A stretch of 37,448 nucleotides of DNA, taken from positions 1 through 37,448 of the forward strand of contig JAAYXS010000857.1 of assembly GCA_012515775.1 (NCBI GenBank). Direction: 5' to 3'. A program made the translations under genes and the position numbers. Positions 14,737-35,782 of the stretch are shown here, in pieces. Below the pieces are notes generated by a model. The model did no database searches. It saw only the letters and a list, made by a program, of their open reading frames with translations, and had not been told where the DNA came from. Each line of letters starts with the position of its first letter. Positions within the stretch are counted from its first letter, which is position 1. Source of the DNA: Phycisphaerae bacterium. Its GTDB lineage: Bacteria; Planctomycetota; Phycisphaerae; UBA1845; Fen-1342.

Positions 14737-15384
14737 CTAACGCCTAGACAAAATCCACTCCCGATCTTCCTCGCTGAGCTTCTCGGCTGCGATCTCAATG
14801 ACCTGCCCGTCCGTGCGCTCGAGCCTCACCTTGCCGAACGCCATGCCGCCGAATCGCGCCTGTATGCGAAACTGGCCGCTGGCGTCCGTCCATTCCCGCA
14901 TTTCCGCGGGAGGCGTCGGAATCGCCTTGGATTCTGGGGCCGGTTCTTCCTTGCCCTCGGCCTTGATGCCGGCCTCGACCAAGGCTTCTCTGCTGCCGAA
15001 TACGACCCGGCCTTCCATTGCCAGGTAGATTGGGAAAAGGGTTTCTTCCCGTTCGACGACGAACGCCTCCCATTTGTGCCGCAACGGCACCCCCAACGCG
15101 TTCTTCGCTTCAACAACGCCTTGCACACGCCACGCCCGCCCCGGCCCCGCCTCTGGGACCTCCGCGGACTGGATTTCCTCCCACGGATAAACGGCCGTGG
15201 AGGGCGCGACCAGAAGCGGCGCAAGCAGCTTCTCGGCCGCCTGCTGCGCGACGAATCTCTCGCCGCCTCCGCGATTGTCGCCGGTCTCGGCCTGCTGAAC
15301 GCTACTTGCCTGGCGAGGCCCTGCCGACTCGCTTCCACACCCCAAGCCACCAGCCACCAGCAACGCCATCCACCACGCTTTCAT
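14737..15384 (-). CDS. Exported protein with C-terminal SHD1-type domain (accessory moron gene)
   Basis: 215 aa from the ATG at 15384 on the minus strand; the longer open frame to 15525 has no signal-peptide logic and is rejected. The N-terminus MKAWWMALLVAGGLGCGS is a signal peptide with a lipobox-like Cys at 16, although Gly at -3 is not canonical. A Ser/Gln/Pro-rich linker follows, then a domain with VYPWEEIQSAEVPEAG and VVFGSREALVEAGI. Residues ~160-215 (REWTDASGQFRIQARFGGMAFGKVRLER ... KLSEEDREWI) match SHD1, a domain abundant in Planctomycetes. It is the only confident minus-strand gene, it lies beside attP, and it is probably expressed in the lysogen. Confidence 0.78.
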   Translation of the reverse strand: MKAWWMALLVAGGLGCGSESAGPRQASSVQQAETGDNRGGGERFVAQQAAEKLLAPLLVAPSTAVYPWEEIQSAEVPEAGPGRAWRVQGVVEAKNALGVPLRHKWEAFVVEREETLFPIYLAMEGRVVFGSREALVEAGIKAEGKEEPAPESKAIPTPPAEMREWTDASGQFRIQARFGGMAFGKVRLERTDGQVIEIAAEKLSEEDREWILSRR

Positions 15385-15436
15385 CGTTCCCGCCTCTCCA
15401 TCTAGGGCTGATCCTCTGGCCCACGTGGCCGGCTCC

Positions 15437-15718: not shown

Positions 15719-16042
15719 ATGCTCCGTGTCGTCTTAGGTTTCATCTTCTGCTTGCTGGGCGCCGCGTTCGCCCTGGTGGCCCTGGCCATGTGGGCCGGGG
15801 GCATCGGCCTTCTAGGGGCCGGTTCCGTGGGCCTGCTTGCCCTTGGGCTGCTGTACGCCGGTCTGAAACGGCTACGGACGTCTGAGCCCAGAAAATACGA
15901 GCTTTACCGCTGGGGTGACCCGCCACCAACAACCAGACAATTCGGCTACGCCATGCACCTTGGAATCCGGCTCCAGAACGGAATGACGAAATGGGACGTT
16001 TCCCGGGCTATCGATGCCATTTTGGAGAATAGCCGAAATTGA
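15719..16042 (+). CDS. Small membrane protein beside attP (possible superinfection or lysogeny factor)
   Basis: 107 aa. Residues ~4-50 form two closely packed hydrophobic segments: VVLGFIFCLLGAAFALVALAMWAGG and IGLLGAGSVGLLALGLLYAGL. The cytoplasmic C-terminal part (residues ~52-107) has TTRQFGYAMHLGIRLQNGMTKWDVSRAIDAIL, a short Q-x3-A-x2-LGI...vS-x-aId pattern seen in several phage and bacterial proteins, likely a small helical protein-protein module. The gene lies between attP and the repressor, so it would be expressed from a prophage. Superinfection exclusion is a reasonable guess only. Start ATG follows GCGGAA. Confidence 0.65.
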   Translation: MLRVVLGFIFCLLGAAFALVALAMWAGGIGLLGAGSVGLLALGLLYAGLKRLRTSEPRKYELYRWGDPPPTTRQFGYAMHLGIRLQNGMTKWDVSRAIDAILENSRN

Positions 16043-17865: not shown

Positions 17866-18042
17866 ATGCTCGTATTGACCCGCCGGCCAGGCGAAGAAAT
17901 CCGCCTGGAACTCCCCGGACTGCCGCCTGTAATCGTGCACGTGCTCGAAACACACCACGGCCGCGTTCGCCTCGGCGTCCAGGCCGCCCCCGAAATCCGC
18001 GTCATTCGCGCCGAACTACTGGCCGACACTCACGCAGCCTGA
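17866..18042 (+). CDS. csrA: CsrA-family translational regulator
   Basis: 58 aa from ATG 17866, preceded by AAGGAAGC; the upstream open frame in the same phase is non-coding. The sequence MLVLTRRPGEEIRLELPG begins with the canonical CsrA opening MLVL[ST]R..GE, continues with VIVHVLETHHGRVRLGVQA and EIRVIRAEL, which match the beta-strands 3-4 and the R44-type region of CsrA (RxGIxAP...V.R.E[IL]). The conserved AP of most CsrA proteins is AA-P here. CsrA binds GGA motifs in mRNA leaders and blocks translation or changes stability. In a phage it may reprogram host metabolism or control its own leader, which carries GGA twice. Confidence 0.85.
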   Translation: MLVLTRRPGEEIRLELPGLPPVIVHVLETHHGRVRLGVQAAPEIRVIRAELLADTHAA

Positions 18043-21673: not shown

Positions 21674-22191
21674 ATGCCTGACGTAATAGCGAGACCGGTG
21701 CGATTCGACCAGATCGATGCACAAGACGCGGCCGACGACTGGCGGTTCAATTGCGGGCCAGCAGCGGTGTGCGCGATTCTGCACCTGACGCCCGCTGAGA
21801 TTCGGCCGCATCTGCGAGAGTTTGAGGAAAAAGGCTACACCAATCCGACGCTGATGTTCGCCATCCTGGACGGGCTCGGAGTGCGATTCGAGCGGCTGCG
21901 TCCTCCGATCGGTTTTCCTCGGTACGGGCTCGCCAGAATCCAGTGGGAAGGGCCGTGGACCGCGCGCGGCGTCCCCCAGCGAGTGCGATATCGCAAAACA
22001 CACTGGGTTGGCAGTCGCCTTATGGGCGGGGCGTAGATATTTTCGACGTCAACGCGATGCGCTTTGGCGGCTGGATTTCGCTTGCGGAATGGAAGCGAGA
22101 ACTTGTGCCCTGGCTACTCCGCCGATGCGTGCCAGGCGCCGACGGTGGCTGGCACATCACCCACGCGATCGCAATCCCATTTGAAACCTGA
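21674..22191 (+). pseudogene. Papain-like cysteine peptidase gene interrupted by a frameshift
   Basis: The 5' part (21674-22036, 120 aa) holds NCGPAAVCAIL (Cys27), RKTHWVGSRL (His110) and stops at TAG 22034-22036. The -1 frame continues with DIFDVNAMRFGGWISLAEWKRELVPWLLRR ... GWHITHAI to 22191. Together these read as a C39-like or papain-like peptidase of about 172 aa with the order Cys, His, then Asp/Asn (FDVNA). The break lies around the run GGCGGGGCG at 22025-22033; adding one G would restore GGGVDIFDVN. It is a one-base deletion, a sequencing or assembly error, or, less likely, recoding. It follows the early genes by 11 bases. Confidence 0.7.
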
Positions 22192-26424: not shown

Positions 26425-27051
26425 ATGGACTGGGAAATTCTGGTGGTCGCCGAAGAAATGCCCGGCTTCTCTGCACAGCGCGGGGAGGCCGTCGTTGCGC
26501 GCGAGGCAGGCCACCGGTGGAGCCGGGCGGAACTGTCGTCCCGGTTTGCACGCGTCCCTTACACCGGCACACGCGCGGAGGTCCGCGAGATCTGCCGGGG
26601 CGGTTACACCTGGGACTTCGCTCGCGAGGTGTTCGTGCATGAGACCGGTCAGGACTTTACCCCGGCTATCGTGGTCGCGCCCGAGGACGCCGACGCGACG
26701 CTTGACTGCGGACTCGACGCCGTGGCTGACGCGGTAGTGCCTGGGTGGCGCGGCAAAGGCCGCTCGGCGGACTCCTACCGGCCGCTGCATCCCGAGCACC
26801 TCCCGTACCCTGAGGGCGAGGATTACTCCGAGATTCGTCGGTACTGGTTCGACAAGTTCCGTTGGCATTGCAACGAACCGGGAATCCGTCAGGTCTTGGC
26901 CGCTCTCAAGCACCATTGCGGAAGTCTCTTCGCCGAACTGGGCCGCCGCTTGCCTGCGGATACCCGTCGGCGAATCTTGTCCGACAAGCGGTTCACGCCC
27001 GAAGACGTCGCCTGGCTGAAGAAGGTCTGGAGGGTCAAGGATGGCGACTGA
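26425..27051 (+). CDS. Protein of unknown function in the adsorption cluster
   Basis: 208 aa starting two bases after the previous stop (TAGGGATG). Basic and hydrophilic; Trp and Arg abundant. Visible parts: RVPYTGTRAEVREICRGGYTWDFAREVFVHETGQDFTPAIVVAPEDADATLD, and a helical C-terminal part KFRWHCNEPGIRQVLAALKHHCGSLFAELGRRLPADTRRRILSDKRFTPEDVAWLKKVW. Its end overlaps the beta-helix gene by 11 bases. It may be an assembly factor or chaperone for the following spike protein, which is a guess from the arrangement. Codon choice is less GC-extreme than in the head genes. Confidence 0.5.
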   Translation: MDWEILVVAEEMPGFSAQRGEAVVAREAGHRWSRAELSSRFARVPYTGTRAEVREICRGGYTWDFAREVFVHETGQDFTPAIVVAPEDADATLDCGLDAVADAVVPGWRGKGRSADSYRPLHPEHLPYPEGEDYSEIRRYWFDKFRWHCNEPGIRQVLAALKHHCGSLFAELGRRLPADTRRRILSDKRFTPEDVAWLKKVWRVKDGD

Positions 27052-28738
27052 AGTCATTAGCACGATCGGCTCCGACCCGGGCGACGATTACACGACGCTG
27101 CTGGCTTGGTATACGGCAAGGAAGGGCGATCTGGTCGCACGCGATACGATCGAGATTGCCGAATTGCGCGGCGAGACGCACACGTCCGGGAAAGTACTTG
27201 GCCGGGACGCAAATGTCGTAGACAGCACTCACTATTTTGTGATTCGTGCGATGGCGGGTGCAGAGTTCCGTGGTGACTTCGGGGACGTTTCCGGCCAAGC
27301 CGTCGTGACAGACGAGGTTGGCAGCTACAACAAGTACACGAAGATTTTTGGTATTGTAGTTAAGGGCATCGTCGGCTCAGCTAAGATTATCGGAATATTT
27401 GTCGCGGGCGATTCTAGCGACATCGACTCTTGTGGCGTAAGTAACTTGGTCTCGTCTGGGACGGGCATGCAGTCCGCGGTCGGGATATCGTGTTCGGGCA
27501 GCGTGGACTGTGCCGTAAAGAATTGTGTAGTTCAAGACCTTTTAGCAGTCTATACGGGGACCAGCGGCAAAGTCAGTGACTGCATAGGCATTGCTTATGC
27601 AGCCTTCATCTATAACAACCTTGTGGCGAATATCTCAGCCGAATCCCAATCTAGCAATTCAGGCAGCACAGCCAGTTCTCACGGCATCAGTTCTGCGTCC
27701 GGGGTGGCTTACAACAACTTGGTGTTCAGCGTCAGCGCCACGGCAGCCTACGGCGAAGCCAATGAAACTGAAGCTTGTATCGACGTCGCTACGGCGGACT
27801 ACAACGCCACGGACGACGGCACCGGCGGCACAAATGGCATCACGATCACGCCTGCCGACGAGATCGAGGATACGAGCACAGCCACTTTCGACTGCCACCT
27901 GAAGCCCGGAGCCGACTGTATTGGGGCCGGAACCGACCTTTCGGCCTACGGGGTGGACGAAGACATCGACGGGGACAGTCGCCCACAAAACACTATGTGG
28001 GACATCGGGGCGGATGAATACGCACCCAGCGTAGCCATCGCCACCGCCACGGGCGCGCACGGTGGAACCCAGGCCCAAACGGCCGGCTCTGCCGTTGCCA
28101 TTGCTACCGCGATCGGCGCACACGGTGGCACGCTGGCCCAAGCCGCTGGCTCTGCCGTGGCCATTGCTACCGCGATCGGCGCGCACCCCGGAACCCGGGC
28201 CCAAGCCGCCGGTTCTGCTGTGGCCATCGCCACCGCGATCGGCGCACACGGTGGAACCCGGGCCCAAGCGGCCGGATCGGCCGTGGCCATTGCTACCGCG
28301 ATCGGCGCACACCCCGGAACCCGGGCCCAAGCCGCCGGCTCGGCCGTGGCCATCGCTACCGCGATCGGCGCGCACGGTGGAACCCGGGCCCAAGCCGCCG
28401 GCTCTGCCGTGGCCATTGCTACCGCGATCGGCGCGCACCCCGGAACCCGGGCCCAAACGGCCGGCTCGGCCGTGGCCATCGCTACCGCGATCGGCGCGCA
28501 CGGTGGAACCCGGGCCCAAACGGCCGGCTCTGCCCTTGCCATCGCCACCGCCACCGGCGCACACGGTGGCACGCTGGCCCAAGCCGCCGGCGTCGTGACT
28601 GTCGCGACGTTCCGCCGCTACCGCGCCGCCGCCGGCCTGGCGTACTCGCCGCGACTGGTCGGAGGTTGCTTTACCGCCCAGGCCGCCGCCGGCCTGGCGT
28701 TCGACCGCCACATCCAGGAGGGCCAGACCCTTGTCTAA
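27041..28738 (+). CDS. Beta-helix-like receptor-binding/tail spike protein with 21-residue tandem repeats
   Basis: 565 aa. N-terminal ~330 residues look like a parallel beta-helix: MATEVISTIG and DYTTLLAWYTA opening, then short Ile/Val/Asn-rich strands (FVIRAMAGAEFRGDF, KIFGIVVKGIVGSAKIIGIFVAG, IYNNLVANISAES, VAYNNLVFSVSA), ending in DGDSRPQNTMWDIGADEYAPS, a closing motif common in right-handed beta-helix proteins of Planctomycetes. Residues ~330-517 are nine near-identical repeats of the type SAVAIATAIGAHGGTRAQ. The last ~48 residues repeat AAGLAYSPRLV and AAGLAFDRHI. The helix section is visibly lower in GC than the rest. Likely host recognition. Confidence 0.7.
   Translation: MATEVISTIGSDPGDDYTTLLAWYTARKGDLVARDTIEIAELRGETHTSGKVLGRDANVVDSTHYFVIRAMAGAEFRGDFGDVSGQAVVTDEVGSYNKYTKIFGIVVKGIVGSAKIIGIFVAGDSSDIDSCGVSNLVSSGTGMQSAVGISCSGSVDCAVKNCVVQDLLAVYTGTSGKVSDCIGIAYAAFIYNNLVANISAESQSSNSGSTASSHGISSASGVAYNNLVFSVSATAAYGEANETEACIDVATADYNATDDGTGGTNGITITPADEIEDTSTATFDCHLKPGADCIGAGTDLSAYGVDEDIDGDSRPQNTMWDIGADEYAPSVAIATATGAHGGTQAQTAGSAVAIATAIGAHGGTLAQAAGSAVAIATAIGAHPGTRAQAAGSAVAIATAIGAHGGTRAQAAGSAVAIATAIGAHPGTRAQAAGSAVAIATAIGAHGGTRAQAAGSAVAIATAIGAHPGTRAQTAGSAVAIATAIGAHGGTRAQTAGSALAIATATGAHGGTLAQAAGVVTVATFRRYRAAAGLAYSPRLVGGCFTAQAAAGLAFDRHIQEGQTLV
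28028..28591 (+). repeat. Nine tandem 63-bp repeats (21-residue units) in the spike gene
   Basis: First unit 28028-28087 (one codon short), followed by eight 63-bp units. All contain AIATA[IT]GAH[GP]GT[RLQ]AQ. The central six alternate GAHPGT and GAHGGT, so copies probably multiplied as 126-bp pairs. Near-identical units of this length recombine easily, so copy number is expected to vary. Confidence 0.9.
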
Positions 28739-29138: not shown

Positions 29139-29678
29139 ATGGACGAACGCCACGACCGCCCGACGATTACGCCCACGCTGGCCGACCTGATCGGCGACCG
29201 CGCGCGGGCCGGCGAACCGGTTGCCGCCCTGGCCGCCGAGTTCCACCTGACCACCTACGTCGTGGCGCGTATCTGCGAGGCGCGCCCGAGCGCAGCGGTG
29301 CAGGCGGAAATCCGCAGCCGCTACGCCAGCCAACCGGACGCCGACCTGGCCCTGGAAGCCCGCCTGGCGCGCGAGTACGGGCTCGACCCCAGCCTCGTAC
29401 ACGACATCCTGAGTTCCGACGACTGCGGACGGGCCCGCGCCCGGCGGCGCGAGGCGAAACGCCGCCCCCGGAAGTTCCGCGTGCGCCACTCCGACCTCTC
29501 CACCTCGCCGCTGCATCTGCGCACGGGCGAACGCTACGCGACTGCTCCCACGATCTGCCCGCGCTGTGGAAATCCGCTGCATGTGATCCCCTGCCGTATC
29601 TGCCGCATCCGCGACCTGCTCGCCGGGGGGGTGCGCGTGTGGAACGACCCGAAACCGACCTCGCAGGATACGCCCTGA
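29139..29678 (+). CDS. Zinc-ribbon protein with helical N-terminus
   Basis: 179 aa from ATG 29139, preceded by GCGAGGCCCC; the GTG at 29124 is a longer but weaker start. Residues 1-100 are helical and Arg/Ala-rich (LADLIGDRARAGEPVAALAAEFHLTTYVVARI), HTH-like in style. Residues ~140-158 hold TICPRCGNPLHVIPCRICRIR, two CxxC pairs forming a zinc ribbon. Could be a transcriptional or DNA-associated regulator, for example of late genes; it is the last gene of the adsorption cluster and is followed by a GC-rich inverted-repeat region. Confidence 0.6.
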   Translation: MDERHDRPTITPTLADLIGDRARAGEPVAALAAEFHLTTYVVARICEARPSAAVQAEIRSRYASQPDADLALEARLAREYGLDPSLVHDILSSDDCGRARARRREAKRRPRKFRVRHSDLSTSPLHLRTGERYATAPTICPRCGNPLHVIPCRICRIRDLLAGGVRVWNDPKPTSQDTP

Positions 29679-29752: not shown

Positions 29753-29859
29753 TAGCGGCCACACTAGACCAATAGGGTGGGTTTTCCCCTCGCCCCGCAA
29801 CATTGCCGTTGCGCGAGCCTCCCTCGCGTGATAAATTGACGGCTGCGACGCGCACGTTT

Positions 29860-29904
29860 GCCGGCCGGCCTGGTGCCCTCTCTTGCCGTGCCAGGCCGGC
29901 CGGC
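29860..29904. promoter_or_regulatory. Perfect 14-bp inverted repeat upstream of the secreted protease gene
   Basis: GCCGGCCGGCCTGG (29860-29873) and CCAGGCCGGCCGGC (29891-29904) are exact reverse complements around a 17-base loop. It lies 24 bases before the protease ATG and downstream of a possible weak promoter (TTGCGC at 29809, ATAAAT at 29831-29836), so it would be in the 5' leader: an mRNA structure limiting lysis-gene translation or a factor-binding site. Confidence 0.6.
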
Positions 29905-29928
29905 CCCCGCCTCTCTTCCTGGTGCCTT

Positions 29929-31293
29929 ATGCCCTTCCGCTTCCACCTTCTCCCGCCGATTCTTCTCTTGGTGGCCTGCTGCGCGGTGCCGACGCTAGGG
30001 GCCGCCGACGACTGCGCGGCACTAGCCGCCGCGCACAGCGCCACCGCCCGCCTGGTTGCCGCCAATGGCGACACGGGAACCGGGACCGTCTTCGAGGTCT
30101 CGCAGGGGCGCGTCTTCCTGGCGACCGCCGCGCACGTGGCGACCTCGCAAACGCTCCAGGCCCAATTCTTCTTTCTGGGGCACGAGTCCAAGGCCGTGCC
30201 CGCCGCGCTGCTCTGGCGCGATGAACCGGCCGACCTGGCCATCGTGGCGGTGAATCTGGCGGCGCTCGAGGGAACGATCCCGCCGGCCATTCCGCTGGCC
30301 CCGCCCGACGCCGTGGTGCCGACCGGCGCGCCGATCTATACTGTAGGCTGCGCTCACGGCGCATGGGCCACCGGTGCCGAAGGCCACGCGATCGGCTACG
30401 ACGAGGGCCGCCGGTTGTGTTTCCTGCCGATCCCCGCAGAAGGCCGGTCGGGCTCCGCCGTGATCCACGCGGGCCGCATCGTGGGTATCGTGTCCGTGCA
30501 AGTCTTCGACAAGAGAAAGGAAGAGGGCGGTCGGCCGGTCCATGGGGCCGCCGCGCCGCATCACGCGTTCTATGCTCTCTGGGGAAACGCCCAACAAAAG
30601 ACCGCCGCCCGCCTGGTCGAAATCCCCACGCAAGCCCAACGCTGGCAACCGTTCGGTGGTCGGCTGCAAGGCATGATGGGCGGATGCCAAGGTGGCGGAT
30701 GCCCCGGGGGCCAATGCCCGTACCCGCAACAGCCTGCGCCACAACAGACGCCCCAACCCTCGCCGAATGCTGGCGGTGTCTGGCCCACGCGCCCGGATCC
30801 TGCCGCGGAAATCGGCGGTGCTCGAGCCGCCTCGCTGGACCTGGCCCAACTGGCCGAGGCGATCCACGGCCCGCCCGAAGAACGCGACCTCCGCCGCCGC
30901 CTACTGGAGGCCCAACTCGCCCAACTGGAGGCCCAATCCCAAGCCGCCGCCGACGCCAAGGCCGAGGCCGCCCTGGAGGCCGTACCTCGCGCCCAACTGG
31001 CCGACGCCGCCGGCTCTGCCGTAACGGGCCAGTGGTCCGAGGCCGCCGCCACCCTCACCGGGCCCGAGGTGGCCGGCTGGGCCGTTGGCTCCGTCGCCAC
31101 GCTGGCCCTGGGCTGGCTGGGCCTACGCGGCCTGCCCGGCCTGCTGGCCCGCTGGCTGATCGGCCTGGTAGGGGCCGCCGCCTTCCGCTGGGCCCATGCC
31201 CGAATCACCGCCCCCGTGGACACGGAAGTGGACGCGGTAATTCGGGACGTAACCACCAAGGTAAAGCCTGCTTCTCACCCCCAAGGTGCCTAA
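29929..31293 (+). CDS. Secreted trypsin-like serine protease with C-terminal membrane segment (lysis candidate)
   Basis: 454 aa from ATG 29929. Residues 1-25 are a signal peptide (RFHLLPPILLLVACCAVPTLGA); LVAC at 14-17 also fits a lipobox. A chymotrypsin-fold domain follows with all three catalytic residues: H69 in TAAHVA, D102 in EPADLAIV and S174 in GRSGSAV. Residues ~240-300 are a Cys/Gly/Pro/Gln-rich linker (GGCPGGQCPYPQQPAP), residues ~320-370 are coiled coil (ERDLRRRLLEAQLAQLEAQS), and ~395-435 form one or two membrane segments (VGSVATLALGWLGLRGLPGLLARWLIGLVGAAAF). It sits at the usual lysis position. Host-wall protein cleavage is hypothesis. Confidence 0.8.
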   Translation: MPFRFHLLPPILLLVACCAVPTLGAADDCAALAAAHSATARLVAANGDTGTGTVFEVSQGRVFLATAAHVATSQTLQAQFFFLGHESKAVPAALLWRDEPADLAIVAVNLAALEGTIPPAIPLAPPDAVVPTGAPIYTVGCAHGAWATGAEGHAIGYDEGRRLCFLPIPAEGRSGSAVIHAGRIVGIVSVQVFDKRKEEGGRPVHGAAAPHHAFYALWGNAQQKTAARLVEIPTQAQRWQPFGGRLQGMMGGCQGGGCPGGQCPYPQQPAPQQTPQPSPNAGGVWPTRPDPAAEIGGARAASLDLAQLAEAIHGPPEERDLRRRLLEAQLAQLEAQSQAAADAKAEAALEAVPRAQLADAAGSAVTGQWSEAAATLTGPEVAGWAVGSVATLALGWLGLRGLPGLLARWLIGLVGAAAFRWAHARITAPVDTEVDAVIRDVTTKVKPASHPQGA

Positions 31294-31511
31294 TGCTCCG
31301 CTGCTGCTCCATCCTCTTGCTGATCCTCTGCGCCACCCTGGCCCATTGCTGCGCGGCTGACGCCCGCCCACCGCGCCACGCGCCGCACGGCGCACCGCCC
31401 CACTTCACGCGACCACACCACGCCTTGCCGCCTCGCGCCGCCTGGCCACCGATCCCGCGCCGCCTGCCGCACCCCGGCTGGTTGCTCTGGCTCCGCATCG
31501 CCCCCGACTAA
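31293..31511 (+). CDS. Small exported Pro/His-rich protein (spanin-like candidate)
   Basis: 72 aa from ATG 31293, which overlaps the protease stop (TAATG). It begins with a hydrophobic export signal, MLRCCSILLLILCATLAHCCA, followed by a Pro/His/Arg-rich exported part (RPPRHAPHGAPPHFTRPHHALPP). Size, signal sequence and low-complexity mature part resemble outer-membrane spanins of two-component systems, which are short Pro-rich lipoproteins, though the lipobox here (LAHC) is poor. With the next gene it may form a lysis pair. No further motif is visible. Confidence 0.55.
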   Translation: MLRCCSILLLILCATLAHCCAADARPPRHAPHGAPPHFTRPHHALPPRAAWPPIPRRLPHPGWLLWLRIAPD

Positions 31512-31513
31512 CC

Positions 31514-31639
31514 ATGCTCATCGCCTTCGCTTTAGGTGTCGGCTGCCTGCTCTCGATCCGCCTGCAACGCGAGACGCACCGCCTGCTCCGCGTGATCGTC
31601 TCGCACCTCGACCCGAGCGACCCCGACGCCGAAATCTAG
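31514..31639 (+). CDS. 41-residue membrane protein (holin or inner spanin candidate)
   Basis: A very short gene, ATG 31514 to TAG 31639, two bases after the previous stop. The product starts with a hydrophobic segment (LIAFALGVGCLLSI) followed by a helical, charged cytoplasmic or periplasmic part (RLQRETHRLLRVIVSHLDPSDPDAEI). A single N-terminal TM with an amphipathic helix is like inner-membrane spanins or small pinholins. Too short for confident assignment; it is supported by tight spacing in the lysis-like block and normal codon use. Confidence 0.5.
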   Translation: MLIAFALGVGCLLSIRLQRETHRLLRVIVSHLDPSDPDAEI

Positions 31640-31811: not shown

Positions 31812-32477
31812 ATGCTCGATCCCAACGACTTTGGCCCGCCCGACTGGCTATTGGCCGACCTGATCGGAGGCCCAGCCGCCGACAATGGGCTGGAGTCCGA
31901 CCGAATCCCGACGGCCCGCGCCCTGCGGCGCGAGGCAAAGCACCGCTTCGCACGCCTGCGCCAACGCGACACGCTCGCCGACGTGATCGGGGCACCGCCC
32001 CAGCCAGGCGAAACCCTGCACATTGTCTCCGGGGCCACTTGGGACTTCTGGACCTGGGTTCCGCTAATCCTGGACCGGTGGCTGCCACACACGGAAACGC
32101 TCTATTGCTCCACCTGGACACTCTGCGCTACCACCGTTGTGGAGCTGCTCGAATTGTGGGACGCCGGCAAAATCGGCACCGTGAACTTCTTGAGCGGCCT
32201 GTACTTCAAACGCCGCGAAACGTCGGTGTACTCGCGCCTGCTGAACGGGCTACGCGACCGCGGGGGACACTACCGCGCCTTCCGCAATCACGCCAAGGTC
32301 CTCCTGTTGAACCACGGCGACGACTACCACACCATCACCGGCAGCGCCAACCTTACGGCCAACCCTCGCGCGGAACAATACGACTGGACGAACGACCGCG
32401 ACGTGTGGACGTTCTACCGTGATTGGTTCGGCGAAATGCTCCGCGACGTCCCCCCCGAACCGGAGACGCAAAAGTAG
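31812..32477 (+). CDS. PLD-like (HKD) protein in the packaging cluster
   Basis: 221 aa. The C-terminal part has NHAKVLLLNHGDDYHTITGSANLTANPRAEQYD, the H-x-K-x4-(D/N)...GSAN pattern of phospholipase D-like nucleases; the Asp spacing after H-x-K is slightly irregular. The preceding segments (ILDRWLPHTETLYCSTWTLCATTVVELLELWDAG, then TVNFLSGLYFKRRE) fit the first alpha/beta repeat. Only one HKD motif is present, so activity would need a dimer. Next to terminase and methyltransferase genes, a DNA-processing role in packaging or host DNA degradation is plausible. Confidence 0.7.
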   Translation: MLDPNDFGPPDWLLADLIGGPAADNGLESDRIPTARALRREAKHRFARLRQRDTLADVIGAPPQPGETLHIVSGATWDFWTWVPLILDRWLPHTETLYCSTWTLCATTVVELLELWDAGKIGTVNFLSGLYFKRRETSVYSRLLNGLRDRGGHYRAFRNHAKVLLLNHGDDYHTITGSANLTANPRAEQYDWTNDRDVWTFYRDWFGEMLRDVPPEPETQK

Positions 32478-32998
32478 TGGCCAAACGAAAACGCGCCAAG
32501 GCGAAACCCAAGCCCGGGCCGCCAACGGTAAGCCCGGAGACCGTCGACCAGACCATTACGCTGCTGTTGACGCTCGAATCGACACACCAGGTCGCCGCCG
32601 CTCTGACCTCCGACCAGATCGGGCTCGCCCCGGCCGCCGCTGAAGCCGCTATCGCAGAAGCCCAACGCCGCCTCATGGCCGCGGCCGGCTACGACAAGAC
32701 GCACGAGCTGGGGCGCGCAATCCGCCGCCTCAACAACCTGTACCGCCGATCGGTCCAAGTCCAAGACTGCAAGACCGCCCTCGCCGCGCAACGCGAGTTG
32801 AACCGTCTGCTCGCGTTGGGCGCCGCGCCCTCGCCCGACCAAACCACAAGCGACACGCCACCGACCGACCCCGCCGAAGTCGAGCGCGCACGCGAACACC
32901 TCGCGCGAGCGCTGCCTGACCATGCCGACCTGCCACTCGACGAACTGGCCCGCCTGGCCGCTACTGCCCTGATCGACACCCGGAGCCCTCACCCATGA
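32477..32998 (+). CDS. Probable terminase small subunit (GTG start)
   Basis: 173 aa from GTG 32477, whose G is the last base of the preceding TAG stop. It opens with a basic Lys/Arg/Pro tail (AKRKRAKAKPKPGPP), followed by helices in HTH-like order: ETVDQTITLLLTLESTHQVAAALTSDQIGLAPAAAEAAIAEAQRRLMAAAGYDKTHELGRAIRRLNNLYRRSVQVQDCKTALAAQRELNRLL. The part VQDCKTALAAQRELNRLLAL is a motif seen in terminase small subunits and phage DNA-binding proteins. Located immediately before the large terminase block. No direct motif proves it. Confidence 0.6.
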   Translation: MAKRKRAKAKPKPGPPTVSPETVDQTITLLLTLESTHQVAAALTSDQIGLAPAAAEAAIAEAQRRLMAAAGYDKTHELGRAIRRLNNLYRRSVQVQDCKTALAAQRELNRLLALGAAPSPDQTTSDTPPTDPAEVERAREHLARALPDHADLPLDELARLAATALIDTRSPHP

Positions 32999-33750
32999 CC
33001 CCCACCCGCCACGACCTGGCTTTCGATGTGACCCTATACCACGGCTGCGCGGAGGACGTGTTGCCATCGCTGCCGCCCGCTTCACTTGACGCAGTAATCA
33101 CTGACCCGCCGTACTCGTCAGGAGGCCAATTCCGCGGCGATCGCGCGCAACCGACCCGTGCTAAGTACCAATCCACCGACACCAAGACCCTATTTGCCGA
33201 GTTCGCCGGCGACTCACGAGACCAACGCGCCTATCTGCTGTGGTCTGCGCAGTGGATGCGTGCCGCGCTCGACGCGACCAAGCCCGGCGGTTTCCTGTGC
33301 GTCTTTTGCGACTGGCGACAACTCCCGGCCACGTCCGACGCGATCCAGGTAGCCGGCTGGACTTGGCGCGGGATTATCCCCTGGGACAAGCGCAACGCGA
33401 GGCCCCAGCCCGATCGACCTCGCAACCAGTGCGAGTACGTGCTGTGGGCGACACACGGCGCGCACCCGTCGAAGCCCGGTCCAGGCGTCCGTTACCACGC
33501 CGGCCTGCTCTCCGCACCCGCGCCAAGCACCTCGCAACGGACCATTTCGACTCAGAAGCCGGAATCCATCCTCCGCGACCTGGTCGCCCTCGCGCCGCCC
33601 GGTGGCCTGGTGTGCGATCCGTTCCTGGGGTCTGGTACCACGGCCGCCGCCTGTCTGGCTATGGGCCGCCGGTTCGTCGGCTGCGAGTTCACCGCCGCAC
33701 ATTTCGCCCACGCCCGCGAACGCATCGAGGCCGCCCTCGCTGCGCGCTGA
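32995..33750 (+). CDS. DNA N4/N6-methyltransferase, solitary
   Basis: 251 aa, overlapping the preceding gene by ATGA. Motif IV DPPY is at 37-40 (DAVITDPPYSSGG) and the AdoMet-binding motif I at 208-216 (DPFLGSGTT), with TQKPE at 186-190. DPPY before FxGxG is the beta-class order, used by N4-cytosine or N6-adenine enzymes. There is no restriction partner, so it most likely modifies phage DNA to avoid host restriction, or marks DNA for packaging. It is embedded between the small and large terminase genes, so it is co-expressed late. Substrate base is not decided. Confidence 0.88.
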   Translation: MTPTRHDLAFDVTLYHGCAEDVLPSLPPASLDAVITDPPYSSGGQFRGDRAQPTRAKYQSTDTKTLFAEFAGDSRDQRAYLLWSAQWMRAALDATKPGGFLCVFCDWRQLPATSDAIQVAGWTWRGIIPWDKRNARPQPDRPRNQCEYVLWATHGAHPSKPGPGVRYHAGLLSAPAPSTSQRTISTQKPESILRDLVALAPPGGLVCDPFLGSGTTAAACLAMGRRFVGCEFTAAHFAHARERIEAALAAR

Positions 33751-33754
33751 CTGA

Positions 33755-35782
33755 ATGCCCCGCCGTTACGACGCACACAAAAAGGCCGCTGCCGAACGCC
33801 AACGCCGGCTGTCGACGGCAGGTCGCGACATCGGCCCCTTACCACCGATCCGCGACCCGGAGCGGCGCGCCGAAGGTAGCCGCGACCTAGCGTTCTTTGG
33901 GCGAGAGTACTTCCCCGATATTTGTTGCCTGCCGCCTGGCCCGTGCCACTACCAGGCTTGCCGGCGATTGGCCGGGGCCGCAACCAATGGGGGCCTGTTC
34001 GCCTTCGCAATGCCGCGAGGATTCGGCAAGACAACGTGGTCCTGGCTGACTGCCGTCTGGGCCCTGCTGCGAGGGTTGCGGCCGTTCGTCGCGCTGATCG
34101 GCGCGGACGAACCCGCCGCTGTGCAACTGCTCGATTCCATCAAAATGGCCTTCGCGCACAACGACCGCCTACTAGACGACTATCCCGAAGTCTGCTATCC
34201 GATCCGCCGCCTAGACGGCATTTCCCAGCGCGCCCGCGGCCAGCTCTACCGCGGCGAGCCTACGGCGCTGATCTGGACGGGCCACAAAATCACGTTGCCG
34301 ACAATTGCCGGCTCTCGCGCGTCCGGGGCGACCGTCCGCACCGCTGGCTTGACCGGGCAAATACGCGGCATGGCGCATACGACGGCCGACGGCCGAACCA
34401 TCCGGCCTTCGTTCGTGATTCTGGACGATCCGCAAACCGACGAATCCGCGCGCAGCCCGGCTCAAACACAGGCGCGCCACGAGATAATCCAAGGGGCCGT
34501 GCTAGCCCTGGGAGGCCCGGGCACGTCCATTGCCGCCGCCATGCCTTGTACAGTCATCAAGCCCGACGACCTCGCGAGCCGCTACCTCGACCGCCGCGCC
34601 ATGCCCGAATGGCACGGGCAGCGCACGCCCGCCGTAATCTCCTGGCCGACGAATGACAACCTATGGGGCGAGTACTCCCGCCTGCGAACCGAGGACTTGG
34701 CCGCGGGTGGCGACGGCGCGTCGGCCGACGCCTACTACCTCACCCACCGCGAGGAAATGGACGCCGGAGCCGAAGTCTCCTGGGAACACTACCGGCAAGG
34801 CTGCCACAGCGCCATACAGCTCCACTGGAATCTGCGGTTGCGAAACCCGGCAGCCCACGCCGCCGAATACCAGAACGCGCCGATTGATTCCACCGACGGT
34901 GCCGAGGCCATCACCGCCAAGGCGATCCTGGAACGCCCGGCCGGCGCATACGAACGCGGCGCTCTGCCAACGCTCCGGCAGACCCTTGCACGGCTGACCG
35001 CCAGTATCGACGTACACGACAACCTGCTCTATTGGCATGTGCTCGCATCCTCCACCGATCTTACCGCCGGCCTGGTCGATTGGGGCGCCTGGCCCGACCA
35101 GAAGCGCGAATACTGGACGCTGGATGACGCAACGCGCACGCTCAAGCGAAAGTACCCCGGCCGCGGCAAGGATGGCGCGATTGTCGCCGGCCTGACCGAT
35201 CTGCTCAATAGTCTACTGGCGCGAACCTGGGAACTCGACGGCAGCCAACACCGGGTGGACCTCTGCCTGGTGGACCTGGGCTACAAACCCGACGAAGTCG
35301 AACTAGCCATCGCCCAATGCAACGCGCCGGCCGCGGTCATAGGGTCGAAGGGTCTGCCCGTCAAGGCCACGAACAAGCCGCTCAGCGAATACACCAAACA
35401 CCCGGGCGACCGCGTCGGCCACTACTGGCGATCTGCGAAGCCGCCGAAACGAAGCCGCCGGCAAATCCAATTCGACGCCAACGCCTGGAAGTCCATCGTT
35501 GCCCGCGCCCTCACGACGGCCCCGGGCGATCCCGGCGCTCTCCACCTGCCCACCGGAAACCTCCGGCTATTGGCCGACCATTACGCCGCGGAGTACCCGC
35601 TCAGGGTCACGGCGCGCGGCCGAACGCTGGACGAATGGCAGCTACGGCCAGGCCGCGACAACCACTTCTGGGACGCCCTAGTCCTCTGTTTCGTGGCCGC
35701 CGGCGTCAAAGGCGCGCGCCCCGCCGCCCTCGCCTCTGGCAAGAAACCCTCACGCAAGAAAAGAAAGGTGCACTATCTATGA
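33755..35782 (+). CDS. terL: Terminase large subunit
   Basis: 675 aa. ATPase domain: Walker A in AMPRGFGKTTW (residues ~86-95), Walker B FVILDDPQTDE (residues ~220-230), with the coupling motif near ISWPTNDN. The nuclease domain begins about residue 420 (TASIDVHDNLLYWHVLASS), with the first acidic residue D in SIDVHD, and continues through LCLVDLGYKPDEVELAI; the C-terminus is basic (GKKPSRKKRKVHYL). Layout and the PRGFGKT form are lambda gpA-like. It cuts concatemers and pumps DNA through the portal. It overlaps the next gene by ATGA. Confidence 0.92.
   Translation: MPRRYDAHKKAAAERQRRLSTAGRDIGPLPPIRDPERRAEGSRDLAFFGREYFPDICCLPPGPCHYQACRRLAGAATNGGLFAFAMPRGFGKTTWSWLTAVWALLRGLRPFVALIGADEPAAVQLLDSIKMAFAHNDRLLDDYPEVCYPIRRLDGISQRARGQLYRGEPTALIWTGHKITLPTIAGSRASGATVRTAGLTGQIRGMAHTTADGRTIRPSFVILDDPQTDESARSPAQTQARHEIIQGAVLALGGPGTSIAAAMPCTVIKPDDLASRYLDRRAMPEWHGQRTPAVISWPTNDNLWGEYSRLRTEDLAAGGDGASADAYYLTHREEMDAGAEVSWEHYRQGCHSAIQLHWNLRLRNPAAHAAEYQNAPIDSTDGAEAITAKAILERPAGAYERGALPTLRQTLARLTASIDVHDNLLYWHVLASSTDLTAGLVDWGAWPDQKREYWTLDDATRTLKRKYPGRGKDGAIVAGLTDLLNSLLARTWELDGSQHRVDLCLVDLGYKPDEVELAIAQCNAPAAVIGSKGLPVKATNKPLSEYTKHPGDRVGHYWRSAKPPKRSRRQIQFDANAWKSIVARALTTAPGDPGALHLPTGNLRLLADHYAAEYPLRVTARGRTLDEWQLRPGRDNHFWDALVLCFVAAGVKGARPAALASGKKPSRKKRKVHYL

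Follow-up and report, generated by a model that had tools for sequence, protein, structure and literature searches.

The canonical lysis cassette of phages with Gram-negative hosts, composed of endolysin, holin and spanin, lies in a late block beside the terminase genes, includes small overlapping membrane or exported genes and has the envelope as its target. The phage locus described here resembles it in these respects, the envelope being a presumed target, but it encodes no recognised muralytic enzyme and contains instead a protease with its own export signal. Opening of a host wall by a peptidase and not a glycosidase is known from PeiW and PeiP of archaeal viruses, pseudomurein endoisopeptidases which cleave pseudomurein cross-links and do not undergo signal-peptide export. 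The protease of this locus is likewise a peptidase, presumed to act at the host wall, although the folds are unrelated. With the DegS/HtrA proteases (Trypsin_2, PF13365) it has fold, catalytic triad and export in common, and DegS is membrane-anchored too. It differs from them in being phage-encoded, in having a C-terminal anchor where that of DegS is N-terminal, and in combining a Cys/Pro-rich linker with a coiled coil, no PDZ domain having been found.

The host belongs to the Planctomycetota, whose envelope is described as SDS-resistant, with disulfide-stabilised protein rich in cysteine and proline (PMC3035269, citing Liesack 1986). Peptidoglycan has been demonstrated in planctomycetes (PMC4432640), and with genes for Mur ligases and a PBP transpeptidase in its genome the host makes peptidoglycan precursors. 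An earlier suggestion that such envelopes are protein-rich is in line with the former description, whereas the minor importance it gave to peptidoglycan is weakened by the latter data. No description of how phages exit planctomycete cells was found in the literature searched.

The protease gene and its surroundings

The window, i.e. the whole stretch of 37,448 nucleotides analysed, is an entire contig of a metagenome-assembled genome. It begins and ends with the same 127 bases, giving a closed phage genome of 37,321 bp with the portal gene crossing the contig junction; since this overlap indicates completeness, statements of absence made below cover a complete genome. The phage gene set includes the large terminase subunit (TerL), a lambda-type portal, a capsid protein, a tape-measure protein, a Phage_integrase-type integrase, CsrA, repressor-like HTH regulators, a methylase and glycosyltransferases. 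The presence of integrase and repressor-like HTH genes indicates that the phage is probably temperate.

Three forward-strand genes put forward in the original prediction (29929-31293, 31293-31511 and 31514-31639) were recovered at exactly these coordinates and all score as coding by codon usage. The start of the first at 29929 was picked independently by the gene caller and is also that of its homologue in the nearest relative. The 454-residue product was correctly recognised at the outset as an exported, membrane-tethered serine protease with an intact triad. It carries an N-terminal signal peptide (MPFRFHLLPPILLLVACCAVPTLGA) and a Trypsin_2 domain at residues 50-187 (Pfam PF13365, E 7e-11) with His69 (TAAHVA), Asp102 (ADLAI) and Ser174 (GRSGSA). 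Beyond this domain come a linker rich in Cys and Pro (GGCQGGGCPGGQCPYP), residues 316-350 predicted to form a coiled coil, and either one or two helices of hydrophobic character (378-396 and 402-427), the membrane tether being predicted from hydrophobicity; no PDZ domain was found in this protein. The predicted model has a low overall confidence (mean pLDDT 55), the catalytic domain being better, mostly 55-80. Comparison with the PDB by Foldseek placed this domain with DegS/HtrA protease domains (E 1.9e-9, probability 1.0), which headed a list of 409 hits at E <= 0.001; the TM-score by target reached at most 0.75. Export combined with a C-terminal anchor implies a periplasmic site of action for this DegS/HtrA-type domain. 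A close copy of a host gene was considered and rejected: host Trypsin_2 proteins align over the catalytic domain only, at ~30-40% identity, and are devoid of the architecture of the phage protease, for which the full-length match is that of the nearest relative.

The protease gene is followed by two tiny genes. The first (31293-31511, +), whose start overlaps the protease stop codon (TAATG), encodes a 72-residue exported Pro/His-rich protein with a signal peptide and a lipobox-like LAHC; the second (31514-31639, +) begins two bases past the stop of the first and encodes a 41-residue protein with a single transmembrane (TM) segment. Neither gave a family match. Gaps of 172-250 bp flank this three-gene unit on both sides. 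Directly upstream is a gene for an HTH/Cys-rich protein (29139-29678, +). Directly downstream are a gene for a PLD-like single-HKD protein (31812-32477, +), matching endonuclease PHROG 16945 (E 4e-9), and a run encoding a probable small terminase subunit, a DNA methyltransferase and the large terminase subunit (32477-35782, +). The protease lies in a late block whose genes all run one way, between the tail genes and those for terminase, and it is this gene order that suggests the lysis position initially attributed to it.

The nearest relative is IMG/VR contig 3300001533_002218 (L009/L011/L042), whose TerL is 75% identical. Its protease homologue is full-length and about 40-46% identical, and both neighbouring sides are kept, the HTH/Cys-rich protein upstream (39% identity, E 1e-20 to L009:3561-4076) and the PLD-like (76% identity to L009:6308-6943) and terminase genes downstream. 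At the place of the two tiny genes stand unrelated ones, for a 40-residue basic protein and an SNase-like product. The two small proteins are exported or membrane-bound, and one gene overlaps the protease, as originally described; their role as conserved lysis partners was rejected, and their absence from the relative makes the protease, not the trio, the conserved unit. The 41-residue TM protein may be a holin-like partner of the protease, although support for this is weak; the other holin candidate in the window, encoded at 15719, has two TM segments and gives a weak hint of Holin-X (E 0.34). Comparison with spanins (Rz/Rz1) draws attention to the coiled coil beside the TM segment of the protease and to the LAHC-bearing 72-residue protein, which has no counterpart in the relative.

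A leader hairpin with a 17-bp perfect stem (GCCGGCCGGCCTGGTGC; 29859-29905, +) ends ~24 nt before the protease ATG and has an MFE of -45.3 kcal/mol (z -4.1). In the relative the stem measures 14 bp and keeps the 11-bp arm motif at the corresponding place, z being only -1.0 there; the motif was not found elsewhere in the window or in L042. Pattern searches for sigma-70 promoters and intrinsic terminators returned no sites. Judging from the hairpin, the protease unit may be under separate control, as would be expected equally of a lysis gene with set timing and of a moron.

Search for wall hydrolases

The original prediction of a phage genome without classical endolysin was borne out by HMM searches on the complete genome. 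No wall hydrolase was detected by a Pfam scan of all 53 window genes, in which families were visible to E about 1e-3, and no lysis family by PHROGs among the uncharacterised genes, a silence compatible with the presence of an unrecognised hydrolase. Six-frame HMM searches of the window detected neither a YiiX-like hydrolase (profile from the L239, L240 and L244 proteins described below) nor a thioredoxin or C39 partner, nor XhlA-like or lipoprotein families. A C39/papain-like gene (NCGPAAV ... THWVG) at 21674-22191 is broken across two reading frames, which looks like the effect of a frameshift or of faulty assembly; it lacks a signal peptide, its product not being exported.

Related phages gave a similar picture. 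The complete list of PHROG matches for 80 selected late-region genes of ten related prophages, and for related proteins, includes no endolysin. Amidase_2, Peptidase_M15_4 and Phage_lysozyme had no match in 46 related phage records, nor had NLPC_P60 and Peptidase_M15_3 in 38; many of these 38-46 records are fragments, and the zero applies to these five families in this set of related records. Genes in related phages (L052:12245-12995, L145:2001-2707 and L160:3438-4171) encode a TM protein followed by TM or lipoprotein products (RTVYVPHG...VRLRETVKNAKVWV), a holin/spanin-like pair with no recognised endolysin.

Exported enzymes in related phages

Profile scans revealed further anchored relatives of the protease in L105, L113, L239, L240-L242 and L243/L244. 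Seven phage homologues, which share 22-46% identity with the window protease and represent at least five phage backgrounds, have all kept the triad, the GRSGS motif and both membrane segments. L240 and L244 come from phages whose late genes differ. The protease of L240 closes the late genes; behind it come a TM protein, a protein resembling thioredoxin (PF00085, E 1e-4) and an 85-residue TM protein, after which opposite-strand genes begin. Three small TM proteins flank the protease of L239, and one of them is homologous to the TM neighbour in L240 (E 7.6e-5). A papain-like Cys hydrolase, YiiX-like by our own reading of its sequence, precedes the protease in L239, L240 and L244, either immediately or with one small gene in between. 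Of the positional evidence, these contexts speak most strongly for a role in lysis or at the envelope. The gene directly after the anchored trypsin of L244 (L244:9153-10235) encodes an exported protein in which an HExxH motif is combined with a thioredoxin-like domain bearing WCGPC. Annotated phages showed no DNA match to the protease region, and the relative's protease recovered two records only from them, weakly and over the catalytic part; no capsid-protein relatives were found by scanning reference genomes.

Among 392 planctomycete genomes, 55 contain relatives of the window TerL, as do hundreds of viral contigs. In the head-to-tail region of these phages, late head/neck loci encode three kinds of exported enzyme: anchored trypsins (L105, L113), trypsins that begin with an Ig-like part (L069, L070, L101; Trypsin_2 E 4e-11), and an exported C39/papain-like protein (family c31) whose gene immediately precedes that of a thioredoxin-like protein (family c37), likewise exported and anchored at its C-terminus. 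A scan with c31 yielded at least 80 viral loci (L245-L324), 73 of them with enough downstream sequence; c37 was within 1.5 kb in 72 of these, and further on in the remaining one. One example is L151:18738-19313, whose next gene runs into L152. Only three of the 392 planctomycete genomes contain c31, each with a TerL relative close by in contig coordinates. A prophage bearing the C39-like and thioredoxin genes is present in a complete genome (that of G381). Short TM genes are enriched after the pair (12/63 against a background of 4.4%, the cases not being independent). As the AlphaFold model of the C39-like protein is of low confidence (pLDDT 49), the C39/papain assignment is based on weak matches (best E 3.7e-3) and conserved Cys/His/Asn residues. 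Families c31, c37 and c60 had no match in annotated phages, the pair had none among PHROGs, and no published description of a C39-like protein paired with an anchored thioredoxin was found in the literature searched.

Like the window protease, this pair offers an exported peptidase and a C-terminal TM segment with a coiled tail; the peptidase is however a cysteine peptidase accompanied by a separate thioredoxin gene, whereas the window has a serine peptidase and no thioredoxin gene. The tail of the L113 trypsin weakly matches the c37 profile (E 7.7e-4), which would fit, though no more than suggestively, a swappable enzyme head on a common anchor. None of the families modelled was present in 11 of 35 loci with neck-to-tail coverage. 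With many related phages showing neither exported peptidase nor endolysin, a peptidase cannot be the only answer in this clade. On planctomycete chromosomes (L013 and L031), host proteins combine an apparent N-terminal thioredoxin part (our own reading) with Trypsin_2, uniting in one protein the enzyme pair that phages carry as separate genes.

Possible roles of the protease

The reading that we favour, with a probability of roughly 0.43, is that the protease is a late envelope-breaching enzyme that weakens the protein-rich planctomycete envelope. It would be made late, exported across the inner membrane and held by its C-terminal anchor on the outer face of that membrane, where it would cut envelope proteins and let the progeny leave. 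Its substrates could be outer-layer or wall proteins, or envelope proteins holding the layers together. The protease would do, or help with, the job of muralytic endolysins and spanins in other phages, possibly alongside a wall hydrolase that escaped recognition. Computation shows the export signal, the fold, the triad, the anchor, conservation among phages, the lack of a recognisable wall hydrolase in the complete genome and the recurrence of exported peptidases; late expression, an envelope substrate and a contribution to lysis we infer. Proteolytic lysis as first proposed is a reasonable hypothesis that is partly supported: the exported anchored protease, the lysis-like cassettes of L239 and L240 and the recurrence of exported enzymes in related phages speak for it, while the gene trio does not. 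The points counted against late lysis are the separate leader hairpin, the flanking gaps, the temperate genes and the missing thioredoxin partner. A further point against it is that a host making peptidoglycan precursors should require some enzyme to cut its wall.

The main rival, somewhat unlikely in our estimation, is that the gene is a moron or serves lysogenic conversion: driven in the prophage by a promoter of its own, the protease would trim host envelope proteins and play no part in lysis; receptor removal, superinfection exclusion or DegS-like stress handling could be its role. The leader with its conserved hairpin, the gaps on both sides and the temperate gene set suit such a gene, as do the many Trypsin_2 proteins on host chromosomes, including the apparent thioredoxin fusions. 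The window also contains a clear moron-like gene elsewhere (14740-15390, minus strand), which encodes a lipoprotein with an SHD1 domain (E 9e-16), lies on the strand opposite to other genes and resembles a planctomycete host gene. However, the protease is embedded in a block running in one direction from tail to terminase, a position kept in the nearest relative, and its L239 and L240 homologues lie among small TM genes beside late genes.

An unrecognised wall hydrolase encoded elsewhere, with the protease as a spanin-like accessory acting on the outer envelope after the wall has been cut, appears improbable. Many genes of this genome have no match, and one of them might encode such an enzyme, as might the split C39/papain-like gene; the papain-like hydrolases upstream of the protease in three other backgrounds further suggest that a cryptic wall hydrolase may accompany it, which weakens the idea that the protease replaces one. 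The profile built from these very hydrolases nevertheless detected none in the window, Pfam gave no match, and the split gene is disrupted and devoid of a signal peptide. Processing of phage or host proteins for assembly or for non-lytic (chronic) release, a mode reported for a planctomycete phage (PMC10945688), is very unlikely, since cytoplasmic capsid proteins are out of reach of an exported protease and capsid maturation would be served by the product of 390-1481, read by us as a prohead protease from its matching cluster.

Extending late envelope breaching by proteolysis beyond this genome, Planctomycetota phages might lyse their hosts with exported trypsin-like or C39-like peptidases, often together with a disulfide-opening anchored thioredoxin, so as to dismantle a disulfide-stabilised envelope with no reliance on a muralytic endolysin. 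This generalisation is rather doubtful; the combination of peptidases and thioredoxin would suit a disulfide-held, Cys/Pro-rich layer. The unusual planctomycete envelope and a recurring peptidase-thioredoxin module without common endolysin families make the question open to direct experiment, and such enzymes could serve to open planctomycete cells for DNA extraction and genetics.

Two other genes of the window deserve mention. A putative tail protein (27041-28735) contains many near-identical AIATAIGAHGGTRAQAAGS repeats. The phage-encoded CsrA homologue lies at 17866-18042 (Pfam E 1.7e-12), and a CsrA-like gene is apparently also present on the contig of the nearest relative (L335:11864-12052).
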